NCBI GenBank assembly: GCA_024398075.1
Contig: JAKSJM010000005.1
Span: forward strand, 1-64,000
DNA length: 64,000 nt
Reading direction: 5' to 3'
Origin: Bacteroidales bacterium
GTDB lineage: Bacteria > Bacteroidota > Bacteroidia > Bacteroidales > UBA932
Of this stretch, positions 3,613-57,447 are shown one piece after another. The position numbers and the translations under genes were made by a program. Every line of letters starts with the position of its first letter. The first letter of the stretch is position 1. The notes below the pieces were generated by a model. The model saw only the letters and a list, made by a program, of their open reading frames with translations, ran no database searches and had not been told where the DNA came from.

Positions 3613-4216
3613 GGTTTTGTGTTATTTGTTTTAGATCTGTCTCTAGCTGTTTCTTGCTGGTAAATGTGATGCCCTTGATGCCTACAGCTTCAGAACCGAC
3701 AGTGTTTTCTGCGTGATCGTCGACGAATACGCATTCCTCAGCCTTGAGCCCATAGGTTTCTAGAAGTTTCAGGTAGATTTCTGGATAAGGCTTGAGAAGG
3801 CCTACTTCTGCAGATACGACTATCCCCTCCAGCTTCTTCACAGGCTCGAACTCCTTTCTTACGACGTCAAAAGTCTTGGCGCACCAGTTAGTGAGACCGA
3901 ACAGTCTGAATCCTTGAGACTTAAGCTCGCTTAGGTATTCGTCCATTCCAGGTATTTCACCCCTTATCTGAAGTCTCCAGTTCTGTATGTAGTCAGTTAT
4001 CTCGGCTTCCCATTCAGGGTACATCTCGATTCTCTTGTGCATGGCATCGATAGGGTCCATGCCCTTGTCCATCCATACGTTTATCTCCCTGCCACAGATC
4101 TCCTTAAGGAAGAATTCCTCTTTGTCTGTATCTCCGGCGAAGTATGAATCGAATCTGATGTGTGGGTTCCAGTCTACCAGAACGCCACCTATGTCGAAGA
4201 TGATGTTCTTGATCAT
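3605..4216 (-). CDS. HAD-superfamily phosphatase (YihX-like)
   Basis: The 203-residue product has the HAD motifs in order: FDIGGVLVDW near residue 8 (nucleophile Asp plus second acid, with the usual DxD replaced by DxG), FGLTNW near 109 (motif II), the Lys of LLKPYPEIY near 143 (motif III) and VFVDDH near 164 (motif IV). The helical cap lies between motifs I and II. YihX-type enzymes remove phosphate from hexose phosphates such as alpha-glucose 1-phosphate. In this locus it could act on a galactosamine or N-acetylgalactosamine phosphate, which is inference. It overlaps its upstream neighbour by one base (TAATG) and the GH109 gene by 8 bp. Confidence 0.85.
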   Translation of the reverse strand: MIKNIIFDIGGVLVDWNPHIRFDSYFAGDTDKEEFFLKEICGREINVWMDKGMDPIDAMHKRIEMYPEWEAEITDYIQNWRLQIRGEIPGMDEYLSELKSQGFRLFGLTNWCAKTFDVVRKEFEPVKKLEGIVVSAEVGLLKPYPEIYLKLLETYGLKAEECVFVDDHAENTVGSEAVGIKGITFTSKKQLETDLKQITQNHV

Positions 4217-42478: not shown

Positions 42479-42484
42479 TGCACT

Positions 42485-42589
42485 GGGGAAAGTCGTACAC
42501 GACCAGCTCCCTCTGAACTCCCCCAGGGTCGGAAGGCAGCAAGGGTAGGAGGTTGTAGCGGTGCGATGTGCTAAGCTTTCCCTTTTTTT
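42485..42589 (+). ncRNA. ffs: Signal recognition particle RNA (small bacterial 4.5S type)
   Basis: The RNA contains the domain IV hallmark GGTCGGAAGGCAGCAAGGGT at 42528-42547. Its ends pair: GGGAAAG (42486-42492) with CTTTCCC (42577-42583 region). It ends in seven T at 42583-42589, a terminator-like end. The mature length would be about 98 nt, as in other bacteria with the short form. It binds Ffh and directs membrane protein insertion. Confidence 0.93.
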
Positions 42590-42662
42590 GCCACTTTAGC
42601 TCAGTCGGTAGAGCAGCGCATTCGTAACGCGCAGGTCGCGAGTTCGAGCCTCGTGAGTGGCT
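42590..42662 (+). tRNA. tRNA-Thr (anticodon CGT)
   Basis: The 73-nt sequence folds as a standard cloverleaf: acceptor GCCACTT/GAGTGGC, D stem GCTC/GAGC, anticodon loop TTCGTAA, and T arm GCGAG-TTCGAGC-CTCGT. The anticodon CGT reads ACG. Pair 31-39 is A-C, so the anticodon stem has one mismatch next to the loop. The 3' CCA is not encoded. It starts directly after the T run of the SRP RNA and has no promoter of its own that I can see. Confidence 0.95.
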
Positions 42663-42685
42663 CCCCAGAGCGCTCGTAGCTCATG

Positions 42686-42720
42686 AAAACAGCCCAGGAT
42701 TATTCCTGGGCTGTTTTCTT
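42686..42720 (+). terminator. Intrinsic terminator after tRNA-Thr
   Basis: A perfect 14-bp stem (42686-42699 with 42704-42717) with a 4-nt loop ends in TTTTCTT. The A run on its left arm makes it usable in both directions, so it may also serve the convergent LD-carboxypeptidase gene. Confidence 0.85.
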
Positions 42721-43785: not shown

Positions 43786-43868
43786 GCTAAAAACACTATT
43801 TATAGGAATTGCCTTGGTATACTATGTATCGTTTTAGTCAATTTTTTTGTCTCAAATGAAGAAAAAAG

Positions 43869-43900
43869 TTTGGAATTAAGAATCTCATCGTCTATATTCG
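43869..43900 (+). promoter_or_regulatory. Promoter ahead of the Gln/Asn-rich leader
   Basis: TTTG at 43869-43872, a 20-bp spacer and TATATTCG at 43893-43900 (one mismatch to TAnnTTTG) place a start of transcription near 43907, about 15 nt before the leader ATG. Confidence 0.55.
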
Positions 43901-43921
43901 CATACAGATTTGTAAAAACAA

Positions 43922-44023
43922 ATGAACGCTTACTATCATAATTTTTCTGGATACTCTAATCAGAATAATAACCAGCGCCAGCAGCAGGCGCCGGAAATTG
44001 TTCTATATATCCAGCCGATATAG
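43922..44023 (+). CDS. Candidate Gln/Asn-rich leader peptide, 33 residues
   Basis: The frame runs from ATG 43922 to TAG 44021-44023. It has six Gln and six Asn codons; residues 13-22 read NQNNNQRQQQ. A promoter lies just upstream and a stable hairpin 45 bp downstream, ahead of glutamine synthetase type III and a run of genes that make or use glutamine. The final codons (ATC CAG CCG) include CCAGCC at 44011-44016, which can pair with GGCTGG at 44074-44079 in the 5' arm of the hairpin. This is the layout of ribosome-stalling attenuation. It is unproven, and a random Gln-rich peptide is possible. Confidence 0.5.
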   Translation: MNAYYHNFSGYSNQNNNQRQQQAPEIVLYIQPI

Positions 44024-44068
44024 GGCAAATCAAGTGTGAATATGGAAAAAGAAGTTTCGAAATAGTAA

Positions 44069-44102
44069 AAAGGGGCTGGTCTTTTAGGAGACTAGCCCCT
44101 TT
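44069..44102 (+). terminator. Leader hairpin, candidate attenuator
   Basis: Arms 44069-44082 and 44089-44102 form a 14-bp stem with one G-U pair and a 6-nt loop. Only three T follow the GC-rich core before CGCTATAT, so it is not a textbook terminator. It lies between the leader peptide and glnN, 46 bp before its ATG. Confidence 0.6.
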
Positions 44103-44148
44103 CGCTATATATAGTTAGTAGTTTTTAATACTTTAAAATCAATTAGTT

Positions 44149-46338
44149 ATGGCAGCAAGTCTTAGATTTAAAGTCGTTGACGAAGCATTCAAGCACGCAC
44201 CGGTGAAGGTCGAGGTCCCTAGTGAGAGACCTAGCGAGTATTTCGGTAAGTACGTGTTCAACAAGCAGAAGATGTTCAAGTATCTTCCTGCAGGTGTTTA
44301 CGCAAAGATGTGCGATGTTATCGACAACGGTGCACCTCTTGACCGTAAGGTAGCGGACGCAGTCGCTGAGGGTATGAAGAAGTGGGCGATGGAGCTCGGT
44401 GTTACTCATTACACCCACTGGTTCCAGCCACTTACTGAGGGTACCGCAGAGAAGCATGATGGCTTCGTTGAGCACGACTGGAAGGGCGGAATGGTAGAAG
44501 AGTTTGAGGGAAAGCTCCTCGTTCAGCAGGAGCCAGACGCCAGCTCATTCCCTTCTGGTGGTATCCGTTCAACCTTCGAGGCCAGAGGTTATTCTGCATG
44601 GGATCCTACATCTCCAGTGTTCGTGATCGGAGATACTCTCATGATCCCTACAGTATTCATCTCTTATACAGGTGAGGCGCTCGACTACAAAGTTCCTCTC
44701 AAGAAGGCTCTGTACGCAGTGGACAAAGCTGCCACCGCTGTGTGTCAGTACTTCAACCCAGATGTAAAGAAGGTAGTCAGCAACCTTGGTTGGGAGCAGG
44801 AGTATTTCCTCGTGGATGAGGCTCTCTACTCAGCACGCCCAGACCTTGTGATGACTGGCCGTACCCTCATGGGACATGATTCAGCAAAGAACCAGCAGAT
44901 GGATGACCACTACTTCGGAAGCATTCCAGAGCGTGTAGAGGCATTCATGAAAGATATCGAGATCCAGGCTCTTGAGCTTGGCATCCCATGCAAGACCCGC
45001 CACAATGAGGTGGCTCCAAACCAGTTCGAGCTTGCTCCTATCTTCGAGGAGACAAACCTCGCAGTGGATCACAACATGCTCATGATGTCCATCATGAAGC
45101 GCGTAGCTCGCAAGCATGGCTTCCGCTGCCTTCTCCACGAGAAGCCTTTCAAGGGTGTCAATGGTTCAGGAAAGCACAACAACTGGTCGCTTTCTACCGA
45201 TACCGGTATACTTCTCCACGCTCCTGGCAAGACTCCAGAGGATAACCTCCGTTTCGTTACCTTCGTGGTAGAGACCCTCAAGGGTGTATATGACCATAAT
45301 GGTCTGCTCAAGGCCAGCATCATGAGCGCCACAAATGCACATCGTCTCGGCGCAAACGAGGCACCTCCTGCAATCATCTCTTCATTCCTTGGCCGCTCAG
45401 TAACTGAACTTCTCAAGCATGTGGAGAATGCTGACGAGGACGCTCTCTCAATGGCTGGAAAGCAGGCATTCAAGCTTGACCTTCCATCTATTCCAGAGCT
45501 TCTCATCGATAACACCGATAGAAACCGTACGTCTCCATTTGCATTCACCGGAAACCGCTTCGAGTTCCGCGCCGTAGGTTCAGAGGCAAACTGCGCAAGC
45601 GCTATGCTTACCCTGAACGCCGCTGTGGCTGAGGCACTCGTAAGCTTCAAGCAGAGAGTTGATGCTCTCATCGAGTCTGGCGAGGAGAAGACAGCTGCCA
45701 TCCTCAAGGTGGTTCGCGAGGATATCAAGTACATCAAGCCTATCATCTTCAATGGCAATGGTTACGGCGAGGAGTGGAAGGTAGAGGCTGCAGCAAGAGG
45801 TCTTGACTGTGAGACTTCAGCTCCAGTAATCTTCGATAACTACCTCAAGGAGTCAAGCGTGAAGATGTTTGAGTCTACTGGTGTGCTCACCAAGCCTGAA
45901 CTTGAGGCTCGTAACGAGATCAAGTGGGAGACCTACACAAAGAAGATCCAGATCGAGAGCCGTATCTTCGGTGACATGTGTCTGAATCATATCATTCCTG
46001 TAGTCACCAAGTATCAGAGCATGCTCATTGACAATGTATCAAAGGTACTCGGTATCTTCCCTAAGGAAAAGGCAGAGGCTATCTCGAAGGAGAACCTTAC
46101 CATCATCGAGAAGATCTCTAAGCATGAGTCATTCATCATTGAGAACGTTGAGAAGATGGTTGAGGCTCGCAAGGTGGCAAATCACCTCACCAGCGAAAGA
46201 GAGAAGGCTGTCGCATACCATGATACAGTGGCACCTCTCATCGAGGAGATCCGTTACCATGTCGACAAGCTTGAGTGCATCGTAGATGATGAGGCTTGGC
46301 CACTTCCTAAGTATCGTGAGCTTCTCTTCATAAGATAA
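44149..46338 (+). CDS. glnN: Glutamine synthetase type III
   Basis: The 729-residue protein is the large type III enzyme common in Bacteroidota. Typical segments are QQEPDASSFPSGGIRSTFEARGY near 125-147, NLGWEQEYFLVDEALY near 212, KTRHNEVAPNQFELAPIFEE near 284 and NGSGKHNNWSLSTDTG near 340, which hold the Glu and ATP/metal residues. It makes glutamine from glutamate and ammonia with ATP, the main route of ammonia assimilation here. It is preceded by the Gln/Asn-rich leader and followed 25 bp later by glutamate synthase, so both halves of the GS-GOGAT cycle are together. Confidence 0.97.
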   Translation: MAASLRFKVVDEAFKHAPVKVEVPSERPSEYFGKYVFNKQKMFKYLPAGVYAKMCDVIDNGAPLDRKVADAVAEGMKKWAMELGVTHYTHWFQPLTEGTAEKHDGFVEHDWKGGMVEEFEGKLLVQQEPDASSFPSGGIRSTFEARGYSAWDPTSPVFVIGDTLMIPTVFISYTGEALDYKVPLKKALYAVDKAATAVCQYFNPDVKKVVSNLGWEQEYFLVDEALYSARPDLVMTGRTLMGHDSAKNQQMDDHYFGSIPERVEAFMKDIEIQALELGIPCKTRHNEVAPNQFELAPIFEETNLAVDHNMLMMSIMKRVARKHGFRCLLHEKPFKGVNGSGKHNNWSLSTDTGILLHAPGKTPEDNLRFVTFVVETLKGVYDHNGLLKASIMSATNAHRLGANEAPPAIISSFLGRSVTELLKHVENADEDALSMAGKQAFKLDLPSIPELLIDNTDRNRTSPFAFTGNRFEFRAVGSEANCASAMLTLNAAVAEALVSFKQRVDALIESGEEKTAAILKVVREDIKYIKPIIFNGNGYGEEWKVEAAARGLDCETSAPVIFDNYLKESSVKMFESTGVLTKPELEARNEIKWETYTKKIQIESRIFGDMCLNHIIPVVTKYQSMLIDNVSKVLGIFPKEKAEAISKENLTIIEKISKHESFIIENVEKMVEARKVANHLTSEREKAVAYHDTVAPLIEEIRYHVDKLECIVDDEAWPLPKYRELLFIR

Positions 46339-46363: not shown

Positions 46364-49300
46364 ATGGACATTAGTGATCAGCGTGGGCTGTACAGTCCAG
46401 CGTATGAACATGATGCCTGTGGAGTAGGAATGGTTGTGAATATTCATGGCGGCAAGAGCCATGAACTCGTAAGCAACGCTCTCAGGGTTCTTGAGAACAT
46501 GGAACATCGTGGAGCTGAGACAAGGGATAAGACCGGCGATGGCGCCGGCATCCTTGTCCAGATTCCACATGAGTTCATCCTGCTTCAGGGTATCCCTGTG
46601 CCTGAGAAAGGCCGATATGGAACTGGCATTGTCTTCCTTCCGAAGGATGAGAAGAGGCAGAATGCCATCCTTTCAATCATAATTGAGGAGATAGAGCGTG
46701 AGGGCTTGACCCTGATGCATCTGAGAAACGTCCCTACCTGCCCTGAAGTGCTGGGTGCAGCTGCTAGGGAAGTGGAACCAGATATCAAACAGATGTTTGT
46801 GACTGGTGTTTCCGAACAGAGAGCTCCAGAGATCGAGCGCATTCTCTACAGAATCAGAAAGAAGATTGAGAACCGTGTGGACGATGAGGATTTCTACATC
46901 TGCTCATTGTCCAGCAAGGACATCATATACAAGGGCATGCTCACTTCAGGGCAGCTCAGACGATATTTCGTCGATTTGTCGAATGACTACTTCACCAGTG
47001 GACTTGCACTGGTGCATTCGCGTTTCTCTACAAACACCTTCCCTAAGTGGAAGCTGGCGCAGCCATTCCGCCTTCTCTGCCACAACGGCGAGATAAACAC
47101 CGTGCGCGGAAATCGTGGCTGGATGAACGCACGCGAGAGCGTGCTCTCTAGCCCTGCGCTAGGTAATATCAAGGAGATCAGGCCTATCCTTCAGGAGGGC
47201 ATGAGCGACTCGGCTTCATTGGACAATGTATTCGAGTTCCTCGTGATGAGTGGCCTCAGCCTTCCTCAGGCCATGGCTATCCTTGTTCCAGAGTCATTCA
47301 ACGACAAGAATCCTATCAGCGAAGACCTCAAGGCCTTCTACGAGTACTACTCCATCCTTATGGAACCATGGGATGGACCTGCAGCGCTTCTTTTCTCAGA
47401 TGGACGCTATGCAGGAGGTATGCTTGATAGAAACGGTCTCAGACCTTCACGCTATACCATTACCAAGAATGGAATGATGGTAGTAGCCAGCGAGGTCGGT
47501 GTGATGGACTTTGAACCAGGTGATGTGGTCAGCAAGGGCCGCCTCCAGCCAGGTAAGATCCTTCTCATTGATACCCAGGAAGGCAAGATCTACTATGATG
47601 GCGAGATCAAGGAGAAACTCGCTTCAGAGCATCCATATAGGCAGTGGCTCTCGACAAACCGTATCCAGCTTGAGAAGCTCAAGAGTGGTCGTCATGTCGA
47701 GAACTCAGTGCCTAACTTTGAGCGCAAGCTTCTTAACTTCGGCTTCGGCCAGGAAGATATCGATAAGACAGTCGTTCCTATGTGCGTAAATGCTCAGGAA
47801 CCAGTCGCTTCCATGGGAAATGATACACCATTGGCAGTGATCAGCGACCGTCCTCAGATCTTCTTCAACTACTTCCGTCAGCAGTTCGCGCAGGTGACAA
47901 ACCCTGCCATTGACCCTATACGAGAGGAACTCGTTATGTCACTTGAGGAGTACATTGGTGCCGTAGGTACAAACATCCTCACCCCAGACGAGTCGAACTG
48001 CAAGATGGTGCGTCTGCCTCAGCCTGTGCTGACAAACACCCAGCTTGACATCCTCTGCAACATTCGTTACAAGGGCTTCAAGACCGAGAAACTCCCTATG
48101 CTTTTTGATATCAAGAAAGGGGAGTCCGGTATTCGCCAGGCCATTGATGATCTCTGCAAGAAAGCAGAGCAGAGCGTTGATGATGGTGTGAACTACATCA
48201 TCCTCAGCGACCGCGACATCGATGACACGCACGCAGCGATTCCGTCGCTTCTGGCTTGTAGCGCCGTGCACCACTACCTTATCAGTGTGCACAAGCGCGT
48301 TCAGACGGCGCTCATCGTGGAGTCAGGTGAGATACGCGAAGTCATGCATGCAGCGTTGCTGCTCGGCTACGGCGCCAGCGCCATCTGTCCTTACATGACC
48401 TTCGCTGTGCTCGATGACCTCGTGAAGAAGCACAAGATTCAGGAAGAGTACGGTACAGCCGAGAAGAACTACATCAAGGCTGTGGACAAGGGTCTCAAAA
48501 AGATCATGTCGAAGATGGGTATCTCAACCATCCGCTCATACCGTGGAGCGAAGATTTTCGAGAGCGTAGGTCTTAGCGAAGACCTCCTTAGACAGTACTT
48601 CGGTACAGAGATCTCAACTATCGGTGGTATCGGCCTTAGAGACATCGCACGCGATGCCATCAGACTGCACGATGAGGCGTTCAAGCCTAGTGAAATCAAC
48701 GAATTCCTTCCAAACAATGGCCAGTTCAGCTATCGTAAGGATGGAATCAAGCACGCATGGAATCCTGAGACTATCGCTAATCTCCAGATTGCTACTCGCT
48801 TAGGCTCATATACTAAGTTCCAGGATTGGGAGAAGATGGTCGACGACAAGCCTGAGCATATCTTCCTTCGTGACTACATGGGCTTCAAGAAGGCTGCTGT
48901 GCCTACACCTATTGACGAGGTGGAGCCAGTAGAGAGCATTGTGAAGCATTTCGTTACCGGCGCGATGTCGTTTGGCGCACTCTCCATCGAGGCGCACGAG
49001 GCACTCGCGATCGCGATGAATAAGCTCGGTACTCGTTCAAATACCGGTGAGGGCGGTGAGGACAATGCCAGATACCACTCTGATGTGGATGGCGTAAGCC
49101 TCTCATCGAAGACCAAGCAGATTGCGTCAGGTCGCTTCGGTGTTAATGCAGAGTATTTGGTCAATGCTGAAGAACTTCAGATCAAGGTGGCTCAGGGAGC
49201 GAAGCCTGGTGAGGGTGGACAGCTTCCTGGTTTCAAGGTGAACAAGATCATTGCGAAGACCAGAAACGCCATTCCTGGCATTTCTCTCATTTCGCCACCA

Positions 49301-50857
49301 CCTCATCATGATATCTACTCCATCGAGGACCTCGCACAGTTGATCTTCGACCTTAAGAATATCAATCCTACAGCGGCTGTGAGTGTTAAGCTCGTTGCTG
49401 AAAGCGGCGTGGGTACTGTGGCTGCTGGTGTAGCCAAGGCCAAGGCTGACCTCATCGTCATCTCTGGAGCAGAGGGCGGTACTGGCGCAAGCCCTGCAAG
49501 CTCGATGCGTTTCGCCGGCATCAGCCCTGAAATCGGTCTCTCCGAGACTCAGCAGACTCTCGTGCTCAATGGCCTCAGAAACCAGGTTCGACTGCAGACT
49601 GACGGCCAGCTGAAGACAGCCAAGGATGTGATAATCATGGCTATGCTTGGCGCCGATGAGTTCTCGTTTGGAACACTTCCACTCATCGTGCTCGGTTGCG
49701 TGATGATGCGAAAGTGTAGTTCAAATACTTGCCCTGTGGGTGTAGCTACCCAGGATGAGAAACTGCGTGAGCATTTCCGTGGCAAGGCTGACTATGTAGT
49801 GAACTACTTCACATTCCTTGCTCAGCATGTAAGAGAGTATCTTTCTGAGATCGGTGTGAAGAGCCTGAAGGAGATTATTGGTCGCACTGACCTTATCGAG
49901 GTCAATGCTGCTGACCCATCTACCAAGCAGGGCACCATCGACTTCGGCCGATTGCTTGCCAGACCTCATACCGACAAGGCTCTCTACTGGGACCGTGGTC
50001 AGTTCACCAAGGTTTCTGGAGTTAAGGATGAGCAAATCATTGAGGCTTGCCGCAATGCTATCGAAAGTGGTGAAGAGGTTAACCTCGACTATATCATCAA
50101 GAACACTGACCGTGCTGTCGGCACCATGCTTTCAGGTGAGGTAGCCAGAAAGTACGGCGAAGCAGGACTTCCAGATGGTACCATTAACCTTAAGTTCAAG
50201 GGCTCTGCTGGACAGAGTTTCGGCGCATTCGCTGTAAGTGGACTGAATCTCAAGCTTGAGGGTGAGTGTAACGACTACTTCGGAAAGGGTCTTTCTGGTG
50301 GACGTATCTCCATTTTACCTCCGGCTAGATATGGTTCTGATTTCGTTCCAGAGGATAATATAATCGCAGGAAATACAGGTCTTTACGGTGCTACTTCTGG
50401 TGAACTGTATGTGAACGGAAAGGTTGGAGAGCGCTTCGCTGTCCGCAACTCTGGCGCAGTCGCAGTCGTTGAAGGCGCAGGTGATCACTGCTGTGAGTAT
50501 ATGACTGGAGGACGTGTGGTTGTGCTCGGTGAGACAGGACGTAACTTTGCTGCCGGTATGTCAGGCGGTATAGCCTACGTACTGGACAGTAAGCATAATT
50601 TCGACTATTTCTGCAACATGGATATGGTAGAGATCAACCTCGTGGAGGATACTGCTTACAGAAAGGAACTCAAGGAGCTTATCAGAAAGCATTATCTTCA
50701 TACTGGCTCTCCATTGGCAGGACGTATCCTTGATGACTGGAACCACTATGTGGAGGATTTCATCCAGGTAGTTCCTATCGAGTACAAGAGAGTGCTTGAG
50801 GAGGAGAAGGTAGCCAAGCTCCAGCAGAAGATAGCAGATATGCAGCGTGATTATTAA
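46364..50857 (+). CDS. gltB: Glutamate synthase large subunit
   Basis: The 1497-residue protein has all GltB parts. The glutaminase domain starts after a short propeptide at Cys19 (HDACGVGMV). The synthase barrel binds FMN and a 3Fe-4S cluster with Cys residues in CVMMRKCSSNTCPVG. The C-terminal beta-helix contains FGAFAVSGLNLKLEG and GGRVVVLGETGRNFAAGMSGG. It transfers the glutamine amide nitrogen to 2-oxoglutarate, giving two glutamates, with electrons from GltD. Length is normal. It lies between glnN and gltD. Confidence 0.98.
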   Translation: MDISDQRGLYSPAYEHDACGVGMVVNIHGGKSHELVSNALRVLENMEHRGAETRDKTGDGAGILVQIPHEFILLQGIPVPEKGRYGTGIVFLPKDEKRQNAILSIIIEEIEREGLTLMHLRNVPTCPEVLGAAAREVEPDIKQMFVTGVSEQRAPEIERILYRIRKKIENRVDDEDFYICSLSSKDIIYKGMLTSGQLRRYFVDLSNDYFTSGLALVHSRFSTNTFPKWKLAQPFRLLCHNGEINTVRGNRGWMNARESVLSSPALGNIKEIRPILQEGMSDSASLDNVFEFLVMSGLSLPQAMAILVPESFNDKNPISEDLKAFYEYYSILMEPWDGPAALLFSDGRYAGGMLDRNGLRPSRYTITKNGMMVVASEVGVMDFEPGDVVSKGRLQPGKILLIDTQEGKIYYDGEIKEKLASEHPYRQWLSTNRIQLEKLKSGRHVENSVPNFERKLLNFGFGQEDIDKTVVPMCVNAQEPVASMGNDTPLAVISDRPQIFFNYFRQQFAQVTNPAIDPIREELVMSLEEYIGAVGTNILTPDESNCKMVRLPQPVLTNTQLDILCNIRYKGFKTEKLPMLFDIKKGESGIRQAIDDLCKKAEQSVDDGVNYIILSDRDIDDTHAAIPSLLACSAVHHYLISVHKRVQTALIVESGEIREVMHAALLLGYGASAICPYMTFAVLDDLVKKHKIQEEYGTAEKNYIKAVDKGLKKIMSKMGISTIRSYRGAKIFESVGLSEDLLRQYFGTEISTIGGIGLRDIARDAIRLHDEAFKPSEINEFLPNNGQFSYRKDGIKHAWNPETIANLQIATRLGSYTKFQDWEKMVDDKPEHIFLRDYMGFKKAAVPTPIDEVEPVESIVKHFVTGAMSFGALSIEAHEALAIAMNKLGTRSNTGEGGEDNARYHSDVDGVSLSSKTKQIASGRFGVNAEYLVNAEELQIKVAQGAKPGEGGQLPGFKVNKIIAKTRNAIPGISLISPPPHHDIYSIEDLAQLIFDLKNINPTAAVSVKLVAESGVGTVAAGVAKAKADLIVISGAEGGTGASPASSMRFAGISPEIGLSETQQTLVLNGLRNQVRLQTDGQLKTAKDVIIMAMLGADEFSFGTLPLIVLGCVMMRKCSSNTCPVGVATQDEKLREHFRGKADYVVNYFTFLAQHVREYLSEIGVKSLKEIIGRTDLIEVNAADPSTKQGTIDFGRLLARPHTDKALYWDRGQFTKVSGVKDEQIIEACRNAIESGEEVNLDYIIKNTDRAVGTMLSGEVARKYGEAGLPDGTINLKFKGSAGQSFGAFAVSGLNLKLEGECNDYFGKGLSGGRISILPPARYGSDFVPEDNIIAGNTGLYGATSGELYVNGKVGERFAVRNSGAVAVVEGAGDHCCEYMTGGRVVVLGETGRNFAAGMSGGIAYVLDSKHNFDYFCNMDMVEINLVEDTAYRKELKELIRKHYLHTGSPLAGRILDDWNHYVEDFIQVVPIEYKRVLEEEKVAKLQQKIADMQRDY

Positions 50858-50878: not shown

Positions 50879-52255
50879 ATGGGAAATCCAAAAGCATTTT
50901 TGACGGTGCCTCGCAAGGAGGCGGGCTATCGTCCTGTGCACGACCGCATCCATGATTTCGGTGAGGTTGAGCAGACGCTGAACACCAAGGACAGGCAGGA
51001 GCAGGCAAGTCGCTGCATGGAGTGTGGCGTGCCTTTCTGCCACTGGGCTTGTCCTCTCGGAAATAAAAATCCAGAATGGAACGATGCTCTCTACCGCGGT
51101 GAGTGGGAGACTGCATACAAGATACTTAAGAAAACCAATGACTTCCCTGAGTTCACTGGACGTATTTGTCCGGCACTCTGCGAGAAGTCGTGCGTGCTGA
51201 ACCTCAGCATGGGTGAGCCTGTGACTAACCGCGAGAATGAGGCGGCTATCGCAGAGCGCGCCTATCTGGAGGGATACGTTACCATTGAGAACCCCGAGAG
51301 AAACGGCCTCAAGGTAGCCGTGATCGGCGCTGGCCCTGCAGGCCTTGCGGCTGCGAACCAGCTGAACTACAAGGGCTTCGAGGTGACTGTCTTTGATAAG
51401 AATGAGGCGGCCGGTGGCCTTCTCCGATATGGTATTCCTAACTTCAAGCTGAACAAGAAGATCATCGACAGACGAATCGATGTCATGGAGCAGGAGGGAG
51501 TTCATTTCGTATACCAGACTCCTTGTGATGCCGAGAAACTCGCGAAGATGGACTTCAGCGGCGATATGGCACCATTTGCTGGTTTCGATGCTTATGTACT
51601 CAGTACAGGTACACCTGTAGCGAGGGATCTTAACATTCCTGGTCGTGAACTTAAGGGCGTTCATCTCGCTCTTGAACTTCTAAGCCAGCAGAATAGAGTA
51701 CTTGCTGGTATGGAGTTCGATGCCGATGAGCGTGTGACAGCGCATGACAAGAATGTTCTCGTCATCGGAGGTGGCGATACCGGTTCTGACTGTATCGGTA
51801 CCTCACATCGTCAGGGCGCCAAGAGTGTGACTCAGATAGAGATTATGCCGAAGCCACCAGTTGGCCAGAATCCAGCTACTCCTTGGCCTAACTGGCCAGT
51901 GGTTCTTAAGACTACCAGCAGCCATGAGGAGGGCTGTACACGTCGCTGGAATATCAATACCCTTGAGTTCCTCGGCGAAAATGGCAAGCTTACTGGCGTG
52001 AAGGTACAGCCTATCGACTGGAAACCAAATCCAGAGGGTGGCCGTCCTATCATGGTGGAAGCAGGTCCTGTCGAGGTCATCAAGGCCGAGATCGTGTTCC
52101 TTGCCATGGGATTCATCAAGCCTCAGCAGCCTGAGTTCCCATCCAATGTTTTCGTGGCCGGTGATGCGGCTTCCGGAGCAAGCCTTGTAGTCAGGGCTAT
52201 TGCAAGTGGAAGAAAGACCGCAGAGGCTATTGACAAGTATTTTAAAGCAAAGTAG
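50879..52255 (+). CDS. gltD: Glutamate synthase small subunit
   Basis: The 458-residue protein starts with two Cys clusters for 4Fe-4S centres (RCMECGVPFCHWACPLGN, and CPALCEKSC). The FAD motif VAVIGAGPAGLAAANQLN is near residue 145, and the NADPH site VLVIGGGDTGSDCIGT near 298. It passes electrons from NADPH to GltB. It starts 21 bp after gltB and is followed after 5 bp by asnB. Confidence 0.98.
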   Translation: MGNPKAFLTVPRKEAGYRPVHDRIHDFGEVEQTLNTKDRQEQASRCMECGVPFCHWACPLGNKNPEWNDALYRGEWETAYKILKKTNDFPEFTGRICPALCEKSCVLNLSMGEPVTNRENEAAIAERAYLEGYVTIENPERNGLKVAVIGAGPAGLAAANQLNYKGFEVTVFDKNEAAGGLLRYGIPNFKLNKKIIDRRIDVMEQEGVHFVYQTPCDAEKLAKMDFSGDMAPFAGFDAYVLSTGTPVARDLNIPGRELKGVHLALELLSQQNRVLAGMEFDADERVTAHDKNVLVIGGGDTGSDCIGTSHRQGAKSVTQIEIMPKPPVGQNPATPWPNWPVVLKTTSSHEEGCTRRWNINTLEFLGENGKLTGVKVQPIDWKPNPEGGRPIMVEAGPVEVIKAEIVFLAMGFIKPQQPEFPSNVFVAGDAASGASLVVRAIASGRKTAEAIDKYFKAK

Positions 52256-52260
52256 GTTTT

Positions 52261-53964
52261 ATGTGTGGAATAGCAGCAATATTCAATATACAGGAGCAGA
52301 CTCCTGAACTCAGAACCAAGTGTCTGAAGATGTCGCAGAAACTACGTCATCGTGGACCAGACTGGAGCGGCATCTATACTGGACGTACCGCCATTCTGGC
52401 TCATGAGCGTCTGTCCATCGTTGACCCTCTTTCTGGCGGTCAGCCTTTGATTTCACCTGATGGAAAGCATATTCTTTGTGTCAATGGAGAAATCTATAAT
52501 CACAAGGAGATACGCCGTCGCTCGGACTATGAGTTCAAGACCGGTTCTGACTGTGAGAGCATCCTTTCTCTTTATCAGGATATAGCAGATGACCTCGTGG
52601 AAGCATCTGAGGATGAAAGCGATAAGCTTATAACTGAACTCTTTGAGCAGCTAAGCGGTATCTTCGCCTTTGGTCTCTACGATGAGGAACAGAATACTTT
52701 CCTCATCGGCCGTGACCCTATCGGTGTCATTCCTCTCTATATCGGTCATGATGCTGAGGGACGCATCTACATTGCCAGTGAGCTCAAGGGACTTGAGGGC
52801 TTCTGTGATGAATATGAGCCATTCCTCCCAGGCCATTACTACTATAGCAAGACTCCAGGCCTCAAGAGATGGTATCATCGTGCTTGGAAGGATTATGATG
52901 CAGTGAAGGATCACGAGGCAAGTTCTCGTGACATCAAGGTAGCATTGGAAGACGCAGTCAAGCGCCAGCTGATGAGCGACGTGCCTTACGGCGTGTTGCT
53001 CTCAGGTGGCCTCGACAGCTCTGTTACCAGTGCGATTGCCATGAAATTCTCGAAGAAACGCATCGAGGAGAATATGCAGCGCGATGCTTGGTGGCCACAG
53101 CTTCATTCTTTCGCTGTCGGCCTTAAGGGCGCACCTGACCTCGCAAAGGCTCGTGAGGTGGCCGATTTCATTGGTACTGTACACCATGAGGTGAACTACA
53201 CCATCCAGGAAGGTCTTGATGCGATTCGCGATGTGATTTATTTCATTGAGACATACGATGTTACCACTGTGCGCGCATCTACACCAATGTACTTGCTTGC
53301 GAGGGTCATCAAGTCTATGGGTATCAAGATGGTGCTTTCAGGCGAAGGCGCCGACGAAGTTTTCGGTGGCTACCTATATTTCCACAAGGCGCCGTCTGCA
53401 GAGGAGTTCCACAAGGAGACTGTGCGCAAGCTTGGCAAACTCTATCTTTATGACTGCCTTCGTGCAAACAAGAGCCTCTCGGCTTGGGGAGTAGAGGGCC
53501 GCGTACCTTTCCTTGATAAGGAGTTCCTGGATGTGGCAATGAATCTGAATCCTGAAGCCAAGATGTGCCCAGGCCCAGTGATGGAGAAAAAGATCGTGCG
53601 TGAGGCGTTCCAGGACATGCTTCCAGCTAGCGTCGCTTGGCGTCAGAAGGAGCAGTTCAGTGATGGCGTAGGCTACAGCTGGATCGACACCCTGAAGAAA
53701 ATCACCTCTGAAGCAGTCTCAGACGAGCAGATGGCTCATGCTGCAGAGCGCTTCCCTATAAATACTCCGCTGAACAAGGAGGAGTATTACTATCGCTCTA
53801 TCTTCGAGGAGCACTTCCCAAGCGATAGCGCGGCGAAGAGCGTTCCCCACGAGGCAAGTGTCGCATGTTCGACAGCCATTGCCCTTGAGTGGGATGCTGC
53901 ATGGAAGAACATGAATGACCCATCAGGTCGTGCTGTAGCAGGAGTTCATGAAAAAGCATACTAA
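52261..53964 (+). CDS. asnB: Asparagine synthase, glutamine-hydrolysing
   Basis: The 567-residue protein begins MCGIAAIF, so Cys2 becomes the N-terminal nucleophile. The glutaminase domain has LRHRGPDWSG, LIGRDPIGVIPLY and ASELKGL. The synthetase domain has the ATP-pyrophosphatase loop VLLSGGLDSSVTSAIA near residue 245 and FGGEGADEVFGGYLYFHKAP-type features (here LSGEGADEVFGGY). It makes asparagine from aspartate, glutamine and ATP. It follows gltD and precedes purF within 6 bp, in one likely operon. Confidence 0.97.
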   Translation: MCGIAAIFNIQEQTPELRTKCLKMSQKLRHRGPDWSGIYTGRTAILAHERLSIVDPLSGGQPLISPDGKHILCVNGEIYNHKEIRRRSDYEFKTGSDCESILSLYQDIADDLVEASEDESDKLITELFEQLSGIFAFGLYDEEQNTFLIGRDPIGVIPLYIGHDAEGRIYIASELKGLEGFCDEYEPFLPGHYYYSKTPGLKRWYHRAWKDYDAVKDHEASSRDIKVALEDAVKRQLMSDVPYGVLLSGGLDSSVTSAIAMKFSKKRIEENMQRDAWWPQLHSFAVGLKGAPDLAKAREVADFIGTVHHEVNYTIQEGLDAIRDVIYFIETYDVTTVRASTPMYLLARVIKSMGIKMVLSGEGADEVFGGYLYFHKAPSAEEFHKETVRKLGKLYLYDCLRANKSLSAWGVEGRVPFLDKEFLDVAMNLNPEAKMCPGPVMEKKIVREAFQDMLPASVAWRQKEQFSDGVGYSWIDTLKKITSEAVSDEQMAHAAERFPINTPLNKEEYYYRSIFEEHFPSDSAAKSVPHEASVACSTAIALEWDAAWKNMNDPSGRAVAGVHEKAY

Positions 53965-53970
53965 TCGTAT

Positions 53971-55851
53971 ATGGAACCATTGAAACATGAATGTGGCGTG
54001 GCGATGATTCGCCTGCTGAAGCCACTGAAATACTACCAGGAGAAGTACGGAACCTGGATGTATGGCCTCAATAAGCTGTATCTGCTGATGGAGAAGCAGC
54101 ATAATCGTGGTCAAGAGGGAGCCGGCCTCGCATGCACCAAGTTGAATTCTGCTCCTGGTGAAGAATATATGTTCCGTGAAAGGGCGCTCGGCAGTGGAGC
54201 AATCACAGAGATTTTCCAGAGCGTCCAGCAGAATTTCAAGGGCATTTCCCCAGAACAGCTCAACGATGCTGACTGGGCTGAGGCAAATCTCCCATTCGCC
54301 GGAGAGATCTACATGGGACATTTGAGATATTCCACCACCGGCAAGAGTGGTCTCTCATACGTCCATCCTTTCCTCAGAAGGAACAATTGGAGGGCTAAGA
54401 ACCTTTGTCTTTGTGGCAATTTCAATCTCACCAATGTAGATGAGGTATTTGAATACATCACATCGAAAGGACAGCACCCTCGCATTTACAGCGACACTTA
54501 TATAATGCTCGAGCTCATTGGCCATAGACTTGACCGTGAGAGCGAGCGTCTTTATGATATAGCCATGGGTCGTCATCTGGAAGGTATGCAGGTGACTGAG
54601 TTCATCGAGAAGAACATTGATATCGCGAACATACTTCGCACTTCTACGCCTATGTTTGATGGTGGTTATGTGTTGTGCGGCTTCAATGGTAGCGGAGAGA
54701 TGTTCTCTATGCGTGACCCTTGGGGCATTCGTCCAGCTTTCTGGTATCGCGATGACGAGGTTTTGGTGGTAGCATCGGAAAGACCTGTCATCCAGACTAC
54801 ATTTGACCTGGAGGTCGATCAGATCCAGGAGCTTCGTCCAGGTCAGGCCATCACTGTCAGAAAGAGTGGAGAAGTATCTCTTACTCAGATACTCGAACCT
54901 AAGCAGCTGAAGGCTTGCTCATTTGAACGCATCTACTTCAGTCGCGGTTCCGACAAGGACATCTATCGTGAAAGAAAGGCTCTTGGTGAGCAGCTCACTT
55001 CGCAGATTACAGAGGCCGTAGACGGTGACCTGGAACACACTGTATTCAGCTTTATCCCGAATACTGCCGAAGTCGCCTTCTATGGAATGCTCGATGGTTT
55101 CAAGAAGGAGCTCAATGAGCAGAAGGTTGACTACCTGTATGAACTCATGCAGGACCACATGCCTTCAAAGGAAGAACTTCGCGGCGTTCTTCACAATTAT
55201 GTTCGTAGCGAAAAGGTGGCGATAAAGGACATCAAGCTTCGTACTTTTATCACAGAGGGCAATTCAAGAAATGACCTTGCAGCGCACGTCTATGATATTA
55301 CCTACGGCTCTTTGGAGCCTTTCGTGGATAACCTTGTCATCATAGACGATTCCATTGTACGTGGAACAACACTTCGCGAGAGCATCCTGCGCATCCTTGA
55401 CAGGCTCCATCCGAAGAAGATCGTGCTGGTAAGCTCATGCCCACAGGTTCGCTTCCCGGACTACTACGGTATCGACATGGCGCATATGGAAGAATTCATT
55501 GCCTTCCGTGCTGCCATTGAACTGCACCGTGACAGAGGCACGATGTCCATCATTGATGATATCTATGCACACTGCAAGGCTCAGGAGAACCTACCAAGCA
55601 CCGAAATGAAGAACTATGTCACTGGCGTCTATGAGCCGTTCACAGACGAGGAGGTCGCAGAGAAAATGGTGGAGATGCTTCGCCCTTCAGGTGTGACAAC
55701 TCCTATCCAGATTGTTTTCCAGTCCCTTGAGGGCCTTCATAAAGCTTGCCCTAACCATCCAGGTGACTGGTATTTCAGCGGCGACTATCCTACTCCTGGT
55801 GGAGTAAGACTGGTGAACAAGGCTTTCATTGATTATTACGAGAACAAATAA
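53971..55851 (+). CDS. purF: Amidophosphoribosyltransferase, long form
   Basis: The 626-residue protein has its probable catalytic Cys at position 8 (KHECGVAMI), so a seven-residue propeptide would be removed. The glutaminase domain has QHNRGQEGAG, MGHLRYSTTG and CGNFNLTN; the PRPP loop reads NLVIIDDSIVRGTTLR near residue 455. PurF makes phosphoribosylamine, the first step of purine synthesis. It is over 100 residues longer than the 470-505 residues of most PurF proteins, with extra segments around 60-100 and 385-425 and at the C-terminus; I recall this long type in Bacteroidota, where a second shorter PurF may exist. A role other than purine synthesis is possible. Confidence 0.85.
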   Translation: MEPLKHECGVAMIRLLKPLKYYQEKYGTWMYGLNKLYLLMEKQHNRGQEGAGLACTKLNSAPGEEYMFRERALGSGAITEIFQSVQQNFKGISPEQLNDADWAEANLPFAGEIYMGHLRYSTTGKSGLSYVHPFLRRNNWRAKNLCLCGNFNLTNVDEVFEYITSKGQHPRIYSDTYIMLELIGHRLDRESERLYDIAMGRHLEGMQVTEFIEKNIDIANILRTSTPMFDGGYVLCGFNGSGEMFSMRDPWGIRPAFWYRDDEVLVVASERPVIQTTFDLEVDQIQELRPGQAITVRKSGEVSLTQILEPKQLKACSFERIYFSRGSDKDIYRERKALGEQLTSQITEAVDGDLEHTVFSFIPNTAEVAFYGMLDGFKKELNEQKVDYLYELMQDHMPSKEELRGVLHNYVRSEKVAIKDIKLRTFITEGNSRNDLAAHVYDITYGSLEPFVDNLVIIDDSIVRGTTLRESILRILDRLHPKKIVLVSSCPQVRFPDYYGIDMAHMEEFIAFRAAIELHRDRGTMSIIDDIYAHCKAQENLPSTEMKNYVTGVYEPFTDEEVAEKMVEMLRPSGVTTPIQIVFQSLEGLHKACPNHPGDWYFSGDYPTPGGVRLVNKAFIDYYENK

Positions 55852-55860
55852 CGGACTGAT

Positions 55861-57447
55861 ATGAATACAAAGTACATTTTCGTGACAGGTGGAGTGGTGT
55901 CATCGCTAGGAAAGGGCATCATCTCAGCCAGCATCGGTAAGCTCCTTCAGGCTCGTGGTTACAAGGTAACCATCCAGAAGTTTGATCCATACATCAACAT
56001 TGACCCAGGTACATTGAATCCTTACGAGCATGGCGAGTGCTATGTGACTGTGGATGGTATGGAGACCGACCTCGATCTGGGCCATTATGAGAGATTTACC
56101 GGTATCCGCACTACCAGAGAGAATTCGCAGACCACTGGAAAGATCTATCAGGCTGTCATTGACAAGGAAAGAAGGGGAGACTACCTCGGAAAAACTATCC
56201 AGGTCGTTCCTCACATCACAAATGAGATCAAGGCTCGCATCAAGGCAAATGCCGTTCGCGAGCATTTCGACTTCGTCATCACAGAGATAGGTGGTACCAT
56301 CGGCGATATCGAGAGCGCCCCATTCATGGAGGCTATCAGACAGCTTCGTTGGGAGATGGGGCGCAACGCCATCAACATCCACCTTACCTACGTTCCTTAC
56401 CTTCGTGCAGCAGGCGAGCTCAAGACCAAGCCTACTCAGCACTCAGTCAAGGAACTCCAGAGTATGGGTATCCAGCCAGATATCCTCATCCTCCGCACGG
56501 AGATGCACCTCGAGAAGGGACTTCTACAGAAGGTCGCATCATTCTGTAACGTGGAGCCTGACTGTGTAGTCCAGAGTGAGGACCTTCCTAGCATCTACGA
56601 GGTGCCTCTAAATATGCAGAAACAGGGTCTTGACGCTGCCATCATCAGAAAACTCGGCGAGGAGGTAGGACCTACTCCAGAGATGAAAGCATGGCGTTCG
56701 TTTGTCGACAAAGAAAAGTCTGCAAAGAATGAGATCCATATCGGTCTTGTAGGTAAATATGACCTCCAGGATGCGTATAAGAGCATCCGCGAGAGCCTTT
56801 CGCTTGCCGCAGTTTACAATGATTGCAAGGCGAAACTTCACTTTGTGAACAGCGAGGAACTCACAAGGGACAATGTGGCCGAGAAGCTTGAAGGCCTTTC
56901 GGGTGTAGTCATCTGTCCAGGTTTCGGCCAGCGCGGTATCGAAGGCAAGCTCATTGCCGCAGAGTACACACGTACCCACGACATCCCTACATTTGGAATC
57001 TGCCTTGGTATGCAGATGATGGTCATTGAGTTCGCGCGCAATGTCCTCGGCTATAGTGATGCAAACAGCTCCGAGATGGCGAAGACCACTCACAATGTCA
57101 TCGACATCATGGAAGATCAGAAGAATATCACGAACATGGGTGGAACCATGCGTCTGGGTGCTTACGGCTGTGATCTTGAGGAAGGAAGCAAGGTACGTAG
57201 CATATATGCGGCAGCTCATATCGAGGAGCGTCACCGTCATCGCTATGAGTTCAACAATGCTTTCCGCGAGGAATATGAAGCAGCTGGTATGAAGTGCGTT
57301 GGTAAGAATCCTGAGTCGGATTTGGTGGAGATTGTCGAAATTCCGGAGAAAAAGTGGTATATTGGTACCCAATTTCATCCAGAGTATTCAAGTTCGGTAC
57401 TGAACCCACATCCACTCTTCATGGATTTTATCAAGAATATCAAGTAA
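55861..57447 (+). CDS. pyrG: CTP synthase
   Basis: The 528-residue protein starts MNTKYIFVTGGVVSSLGKGI, the usual CTP synthase N-terminus with its P-loop. The synthetase domain (to about 270) has DPYINIDPGTLNPYEHGE and ETDLDLGHYERF. The amidotransferase domain has FGICLGMQM with the Cys nucleophile and a C-terminal GTQFHPEYSS with His and Glu. It converts UTP to CTP using glutamine and ATP. It lies between purF and carA. Confidence 0.98.
   Translation: MNTKYIFVTGGVVSSLGKGIISASIGKLLQARGYKVTIQKFDPYINIDPGTLNPYEHGECYVTVDGMETDLDLGHYERFTGIRTTRENSQTTGKIYQAVIDKERRGDYLGKTIQVVPHITNEIKARIKANAVREHFDFVITEIGGTIGDIESAPFMEAIRQLRWEMGRNAINIHLTYVPYLRAAGELKTKPTQHSVKELQSMGIQPDILILRTEMHLEKGLLQKVASFCNVEPDCVVQSEDLPSIYEVPLNMQKQGLDAAIIRKLGEEVGPTPEMKAWRSFVDKEKSAKNEIHIGLVGKYDLQDAYKSIRESLSLAAVYNDCKAKLHFVNSEELTRDNVAEKLEGLSGVVICPGFGQRGIEGKLIAAEYTRTHDIPTFGICLGMQMMVIEFARNVLGYSDANSSEMAKTTHNVIDIMEDQKNITNMGGTMRLGAYGCDLEEGSKVRSIYAAAHIEERHRHRYEFNNAFREEYEAAGMKCVGKNPESDLVEIVEIPEKKWYIGTQFHPEYSSSVLNPHPLFMDFIKNIK

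Follow-up and report, generated by a model that had tools for sequence, protein, structure and literature searches.

Upstream of glnN, which encodes a type III glutamine synthetase, an uncultured Bacteroidales genome very likely carries a translated, ribosome-mediated transcription attenuator that is read through glutamine and asparagine codons. The locus was found in the window, that is, the whole stretch of 64,000 nt analysed (contig JAKSJM010000005.1, positions 1 to 64,000). Its sequence presents a short frame with a run of Gln/Asn codons, a box complementary to one arm of a downstream terminator, the spacing between these elements and the order of the genes behind them, and the arrangement recurs in relatives with a codon content that matches the operon.

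As proposed here, the attenuator would sense how much charged Gln- and Asn-tRNA is available and control the operon glnN-gltB-gltD-asnB-purF-like-pyrG. When both Gln and Asn are ample, the ribosome would reach the leader stop codon and mask the box CCAGCC, and the terminator would form. If either amide ran short, the ribosome would stall in the Gln/Asn run, whose end lies 23 nt upstream of the box; the leader hairpin P1 would then fold, its loop would show the box to the 5′ arm of the terminator, and transcription would continue.

Leader, terminator and operon in the window

The leader frame, identified by direct reading and in the ORF list, encoded the peptide MNAYYHNFSGYSNQNNNQRQQQAPEIVLYIQPI in 33 codons followed by TAG. 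As the preliminary description, made from the sequence alone, had stated, 12 of the 33 codons specify Gln or Asn, and nine of these fall within residues 13–22 (AAT CAG AAT AAT AAC CAG CGC CAG CAG CAG). When short ORFs (10–60 codons) from either strand of the window were compared over any 12 residues, the leader was the only one among 1378 short-ORF stops to contain at least 7 Gln/Asn, possessing 9 versus 6 in the next best. The peptide had no match in Pfam or in plasmids.

The promoter claimed earlier to precede the frame can be retained as a putative one. The arrangement TTTG-20 nt-TATATTCG is presumably of the Bacteroidota type, with 5 of 6 matches to the consensus TAnnTTTG, and is presumably active. 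A sigma-70 promoter scan gave matches at chance level only, and these were set aside. Among the 39 clustered elements of relatives and window (see below) with sufficient upstream DNA, 33 matched TAnnTTTG at five or more of its six defined positions no further than 50 nt from the start, versus 38% in shuffles.

Table 1. Features of the leader region and of the downstream operon, with positions in the window
Feature	Position	Strand	Basis
-33 element TTTG, putative Bacteroidota-type promoter	43869..43872	+	sequence
-7 element TATATTCG, putative	43893..43900	+	20 nt downstream of TTTG
Leader peptide frame, 33 codons and TAG	43922..44023	+	Gln/Asn content recurs in relatives, sequence does not
Gln/Asn run, residues 13-22, 9/10	43958..43987	+	sequence
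5′ arm of leader hairpin P1 (TTGTTCTATAT)	43998..44008	+	inverted repeat and folds
Antiterminator box CCAGCC in P1 loop, putative, over codons 30-32	44011..44016	+	complementary to terminator 5′ arm
3′ arm of P1 (ATATAGGGCAA)	44018..44028	+	inverted repeat
Terminator hairpin, GGCTGG in 5′ arm at 44074-44079	44069..44102	+	inverted repeat and folding
glnN, glutamine synthetase type III	44149..46338	+	Pfam GSIII_N 1.3e-75
gltB, glutamate synthase large subunit	46364..50857	+	NCBIfam NF008730, E 0, above cut-off
gltD, glutamate synthase small subunit	50879..52255	+	NCBIfam TIGR01317, above cut-off
asnB, glutamine-dependent asparagine synthase	52261..53964	+	NCBIfam NF006949, above cut-off
purF-like glutamine amidotransferase	53971..55851	+	TIGR01134 E 5e-40, below cut-off; GATase_6
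pyrG, CTP synthase (glutamine-hydrolysing)	55861..57447	+	NCBIfam NF003792 / TIGR00337, above cut-off

The terminator hairpin, with arms at nt 44069–44082 and 44089–44102, had a folding energy of -27.3 kcal/mol for nt 44063–44115 (z -6.0). Its T run, about which the preliminary description had cautioned, comprised 3 residues (nt 44100–44102). The complementarity of CCAGCC to GGCTGG in the 5′ arm of this hairpin was located as described, and the pairing taken by itself was not significant (p 0.06 versus shuffles); the case for it is made by the relatives. P1, with the loop ATCCAGCCG, did not exceed dinucleotide shuffles in stability (z -0.4), and in a longer stretch it had a z of -2.8 versus simple shuffles.

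The identification of the gene behind the leader as glutamine synthetase held, since its product matched GSIII_N. The six genes of the operon were separated by gaps of 5–25 nt and are thus presumably co-transcribed. All six predicted proteins fall in enzyme families making or using glutamine; the fifth is called only purF-like, as its match was below the NCBIfam cut-off for PurF. Elsewhere in the window, the region of nt 42479–42718 carried a Bacteroidales small SRP RNA (RF04183), then a tRNA gene, and then a long terminator-like hairpin.

Recurrence before glnN and other nitrogen genes

Upstream regions of 123 genes for type III glutamine synthetase were compared, 111 from the same genus (including second copies and one region, L105, shortened by a contig end) and 12 from other families of the order. 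Of the 111 same-genus regions, 37 had a frame in which 12 residues included 6 or more Gln/Asn, and 74 had no such frame. It had been suggested that conservation of the Gln/Asn run in relatives be checked, and in these 37 regions the Gln/Asn-rich frame was accompanied by a hairpin and by a box complementary to it; a terminator-like hairpin followed every frame upstream of glnN. The outcome named beforehand as a refutation, absence of any conserved Gln/Asn-rich frame ahead of glnN in relatives, thus did not occur. No such leader was found in the 12 regions from other families. Five regions that had passed the loose Gln/Asn filter (L019, L230, L390, L397 and L416) were dropped as belonging to another family (L019, a chance pass), consisting of a tandem repeat (L230, a named record), having an unconvincing terminator, or lying inside gltD.

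The leaders in glnN relatives started mostly with ATG or GTG, and the peptides were mostly dissimilar apart from their composition, for example, MAYTVYNQQQNQQSQGNQSGVVSACV, VARTLNNQKQNSQNQQVPGASRCV, and MFKTVSYSLILKNKNNQNQNNNQNQQALTFVVHIRPSTI. The peptide sequence varied, and what recurred was the Gln/Asn content, the hairpin, and a box that can pair with the arm of this hairpin. A frame with a defined start and stop is kept, as would be expected if the leader encoded a small protein with a function of its own or an arrest peptide whose effect depends on its sequence. Such a role is most improbable, since the clusters share peptide composition and little else, and the window peptide lacked a Pfam match.

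Including those before the other genes described below, 65 elements were obtained, which fell into 40 clusters when grouped at an alignment score of roughly 72%. The terminator was located by an automatic finder in 64 of the 65 and by hand in the remaining one (L337). A run of at least six T residues at the 3′ side of the hairpin was seen in 29 of the 65 elements and 22 of the 40 clusters.

Among the best 80 named records listed, the leader was found in one, Candidatus Cryptobacteroides caccocaballi (L208); many of these 80 carry the labels Prevotella or Bacteroidaceae, and in one (L257) the upstream DNA was too short. Nine of the 10 named records at 83% to 92% glnN identity among the matches listed (L199–L208) were without leader. 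Since the L208 leader is identical to that of a same-genus genome (L037 in G104), the genus is presumably Candidatus Cryptobacteroides, as judged from this one named record. Two glnN genes 92% identical to that of the window (L032 in G360 and L033 in G046) had no leader and directly followed another coding frame, presumably resembling an aminotransferase.

Records named Prevotella possessed glnN genes 74% to 77% identical to that of the window, among the matches listed, and many same-genus copies shared only 51% to 62% identity with it, a pattern hinting at gene transfer or old paralogues. In two further glnN-gltB operons, a different leader-like frame sharing FDFDYLY was observed upstream (MRTLLIAFDFDYLYVTIPSDNFLI and MTTSTKYFDFDYLYGRVHVATD), with a terminator-like hairpin behind it in both cases; the two were L057 (G125:C29, codons at 3788–3808) and L058 (G078:C79, 12187–12207), and the coding pattern for FDFDYLY was present in 4 of 151 genomes.

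By pattern search and a covariance model (R1) built from 16 glnN-upstream elements, the same anatomy was found before glnK-amtB, asnB, gltB, and a purF-like gene. In the genome of the window itself, R1 detected a second element on another contig (C39), located before glnK-amtB (E 3.7e-12, a rough value), with an unrelated peptide that is also Gln/Asn-rich (MMFFRNNQQQNQNQQQNCWLTC), the box CCGGTC, and a hairpin with six T residues. Twenty further pattern or model matches, chosen by hand, were fetched; nine had a Gln/Asn frame, all of them preceding glnN, glnK-amtB, asnB, gltB or a purF-like gene, and 11 were plain hairpins with at best 5 Gln/Asn in 12 residues. R1 scores plain hairpins as well (about 30–43 bits); it is the frame and not the model alone that separates attenuators from plain terminators. 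Among 18 other loci of the window's own genome (L279–L296), a frame with at least 7 Gln/Asn was found only in re-matches of the two known elements. An order-wide R1 search gave matches in 63 of 247 genomes, the window's own included, and none of the 19 loci fetched from it had at least 7 Gln/Asn in 12 residues (best 6). In a sample of glnK loci, 11 of 30 distinct loci reached at least 7 in 12 and two more had 6.

These comparisons bear on the view that the hairpin is a constitutive terminator preceded by a chance or repeat-derived Gln/Asn frame. CAG-rich DNA can expand, and the T run and the box of the window are weak when taken alone. However, the Asn codons AAT and AAC are interspersed with CAG in an order that varies, the 11 plain model-like hairpins had no such frame, and two separate contigs of one genome carry the device before nitrogen operons; a fortuitous frame is therefore hardly credible, and a translated attenuator is strongly preferred.

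A second class of elements, with a CCGG-type box (CCGGTC in most) and the arm GACCGG, was observed before glnK-amtB (L311, L313, L314, L315, and L322) and before asnB-glnN (L347 and L349). Genomes G097 and G133 each carried similar leaders ahead of both glnK-amtB and asnB-glnN. On one contig (G112:C44), similar leaders, MSFWSNNNNDNKQNLNQ.. before glnN (L036) and MSFWSNNKGNKQNLNK.. before gltB (L181), lay about 14 kb apart, and their likeness suggests that the device was duplicated within this contig.

Codon content and relation to known regulators

A leader with terminator was found at 17 of 66 asnB loci from two sets. Leaders with glnN or glnK directly downstream contained 3–6 Gln and 6–9 Asn in 10 of 10 cases, versus 0–1 Gln and 5–10 Asn in 6 of 6 cases without glnN or glnK within 1.5 kb, which, allowing for near-copies (L327/L328, L329/L380, L345/L383, L347/L349, and L410/L411), amount to about five independent cases per side. 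The leader of L400, at a contig edge, had 0 Gln and 6 Asn. The first form of this contrast, that leaders without glnN or amtB were Asn-rich and Gln-poor, was post hoc, and it counted a purF-like leader (L127; 1 Gln, 10 Asn) with asnB next in the contig. The second set, from 160 more genomes with 36 further asnB loci, gave 3–6 Gln in 4 of 4 leaders with glnN or glnK next and 1 Gln in 2 of 2 without; this set was only partly blind, as L410 is a leader of G328 already seen, L380, L383, and L411 are near-copies, and only L385, L391, and L400 represent new kinds.

Within one contig of G012, an Asn leader lies between glnN and asnB (L331), and the glnN leader (L004) has both Gln and Asn. Many leaderless asnB genes follow gltD, glnK or other nitrogen genes and may thus be members of other operons. 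Over the 40 clusters, the leader codons were AAT 149, AAC 70, CAG 196, and CAA 1. The nearly exclusive use of CAG is by itself no sign of a repeat, because the operon genes are equally biased (131 CAG and 3 CAA). The strongest argument that the identity of the codons matters, as would be expected if tRNA charging were read, comes from the match of codon content to operon.

Whether the leaders constitute a nitrogen regulon of one large genus, run by Gln/Asn-reading attenuators with the codon mix tuned per operon (only Asn ahead of asnB; both Gln and Asn ahead of glnN and glnK-amtB) and with a loop-box pseudoknot, can be put at about even chances when all these parts are taken jointly.

Leader-peptide attenuators that act through the ribosome are well known from the trp, his, leu, thr, ilv, and phe operons. 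Like them, the present locus has a short frame enriched in codons for the amino acid that the downstream genes make, with a terminator behind it and, as proposed, an antiterminator that a stalled ribosome would release and a ribosome at the stop codon would mask. It differs from them in the use of Gln and Asn codons, its nitrogen-assimilation genes, the box in a loop, and a Gln:Asn mix matched to the operon.

Bacterial nitrogen control is generally attributed to PII/NtrC, GlnR/TnrA, NtcA, or glutamine riboswitches. The latter, namely, the glnA and Downstream-peptide motifs of cyanobacteria, bind glutamine directly, and T-box elements for asparagine sense tRNA charging ahead of amino-acid genes. 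A metabolite-binding glutamine riboswitch or a T-box with an incidental Gln/Asn frame would suit the kind of genes regulated and a structured RNA ahead of a terminator, and RNA control of glutamine synthetase by glutamine supply is a trait that the locus, as proposed, would share with the riboswitches. However, a search of nt 43860–44160 gave no Rfam family, riboswitch or T-box, at a curated score and six matches at chance level. Moreover, the four invariant columns of alignment A1 all lie in the terminator (MAFFT misplaced some boxes in this alignment), and an aptamer would leave unexplained why the codon content tracks the operon. Either element is accordingly very unlikely, and the translated frame of the attenuator is the likely sensor.

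The preliminary description knew of no such control in Bacteroidota. In its broad form this needs correcting, as leader-peptide attenuation has already been proposed for Flavobacterium psychrophilum, where operons of amino-acid biosynthesis are reported to show strong clues for it (PMC9723704), and leader-like short frames have been described in Bacteroides thetaiotaomicron (PMC7366714). Both organisms belong to the same phylum, but the available portions of these reports name neither a Gln/Asn leader nor any anatomy, and the text on B. thetaiotaomicron (PMC7366714) mentions neither glnA nor glutamine. No attenuator with a Gln- or Asn-coded leader was found in the open-access literature searched, which is no proof of absence. 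Within that literature, the mechanism is of a known kind, the amino acids and the gene set are new, and the geometry of the antiterminator is probably new.

If the proposal is true, a glutamine signal is read by translation in an uncultured Bacteroidales genus with hundreds of genome species, Gln and Asn join the amino acids read by leader peptides, and one device ties several nitrogen operons together. The elements would also constitute a natural experiment in which codon content varies with the controlled gene, and charging of tRNA-Gln and tRNA-Asn as a regulator of ammonium assimilation becomes directly testable.

Box-arm pairing and the geometry of the proposed switch

To assess the pairing, the sequence that follows the Gln/Asn run was searched for its best complement to the 5′ arm of the terminator. 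Over the clusters, each region paired with its own arm better than shuffled regions did (combined p 1.4e-15, an overstated value, as clusters share ancestry). Arm and box often deviated together, as in CCGGTC/GACCGG, CGGCCT/AGGCCG, and GTCGGT/ACCGAC. In the 12 clusters without a GGCTGG arm, the own arm ranked above foreign arms (combined p 0.0046), with L299, L310, and L322 failing this test and L337 giving a weak result.

Measured from the end of the stop codon, the box started at -42 to +11 nt (median -9.5); its distance from the run had a median of 26 nt (range 4–49) in the 40 clusters. Judging from the size of the ribosome footprint, a ribosome at the stop codon would cover the box in most elements, and one in the Gln/Asn run usually would not.

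Since RNAalifold on the MAFFT alignment A1, in which P1 is misaligned, recovered the terminator only, P1 was tested sequence by sequence versus shuffles. The five central bases of the box were forced to be unpaired, which keeps the core out of stems, and the share of small loops in shuffles served as the control. The box lay in an apical loop in 36 of the 40 clusters (L099, L335, L337, and L345 failed), and the loop was of 14 nt or less in 33 of the 40, versus 32% of shuffles. In the first set of 35 sequences, which excluded L031, L086, L090, L096, and L113 as near-duplicates, the box was in a loop in 34, versus 49% (any loop) and 32% (small loops) of shuffles. The spacers around the box core in the loop had medians of 2 nt before and 1 nt after it.

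The preliminary description had taken the locus for classical attenuation. Its attenuation part is supported by the recurrence before glnN, the occurrence before other nitrogen genes, and a Gln:Asn balance that follows the downstream gene; its classical layout probably does not hold, the box lying in the loop of a hairpin in most relatives. In a trp-like layout, P1 would sequester the box (region 1:2), the antiterminator would be a simple duplex, and the operon would be off without translation. The frame, run, box, and terminator do stand in the classical order, with the box overlapping or adjoining the end of the leader, and this layout is a possible, although the less probable, alternative. 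Against it, the unpaired core lay in the apical loop instead of the stem of the upstream hairpin, where a trp-type switch would place it, and the box could pair with the arm while P1 stays folded. The switch is therefore probably not of the 1:2/2:3/3:4 layout.

A loop box paired to a downstream strand would constitute an H-type pseudoknot, and the position of the box suggests a pseudoknot-like antiterminator instead of the classical switch; the loop-presented form is favoured by a small measure. In many glnN elements (L131, L100, L010, L008, and others), P1 was lengthened by an outer stem that starts in the codons after the Gln/Asn run, for example, GTTTCTG/CAGAAAC, GCTTCT/AGAAGC, and GAGTTTC/GAAACTC.
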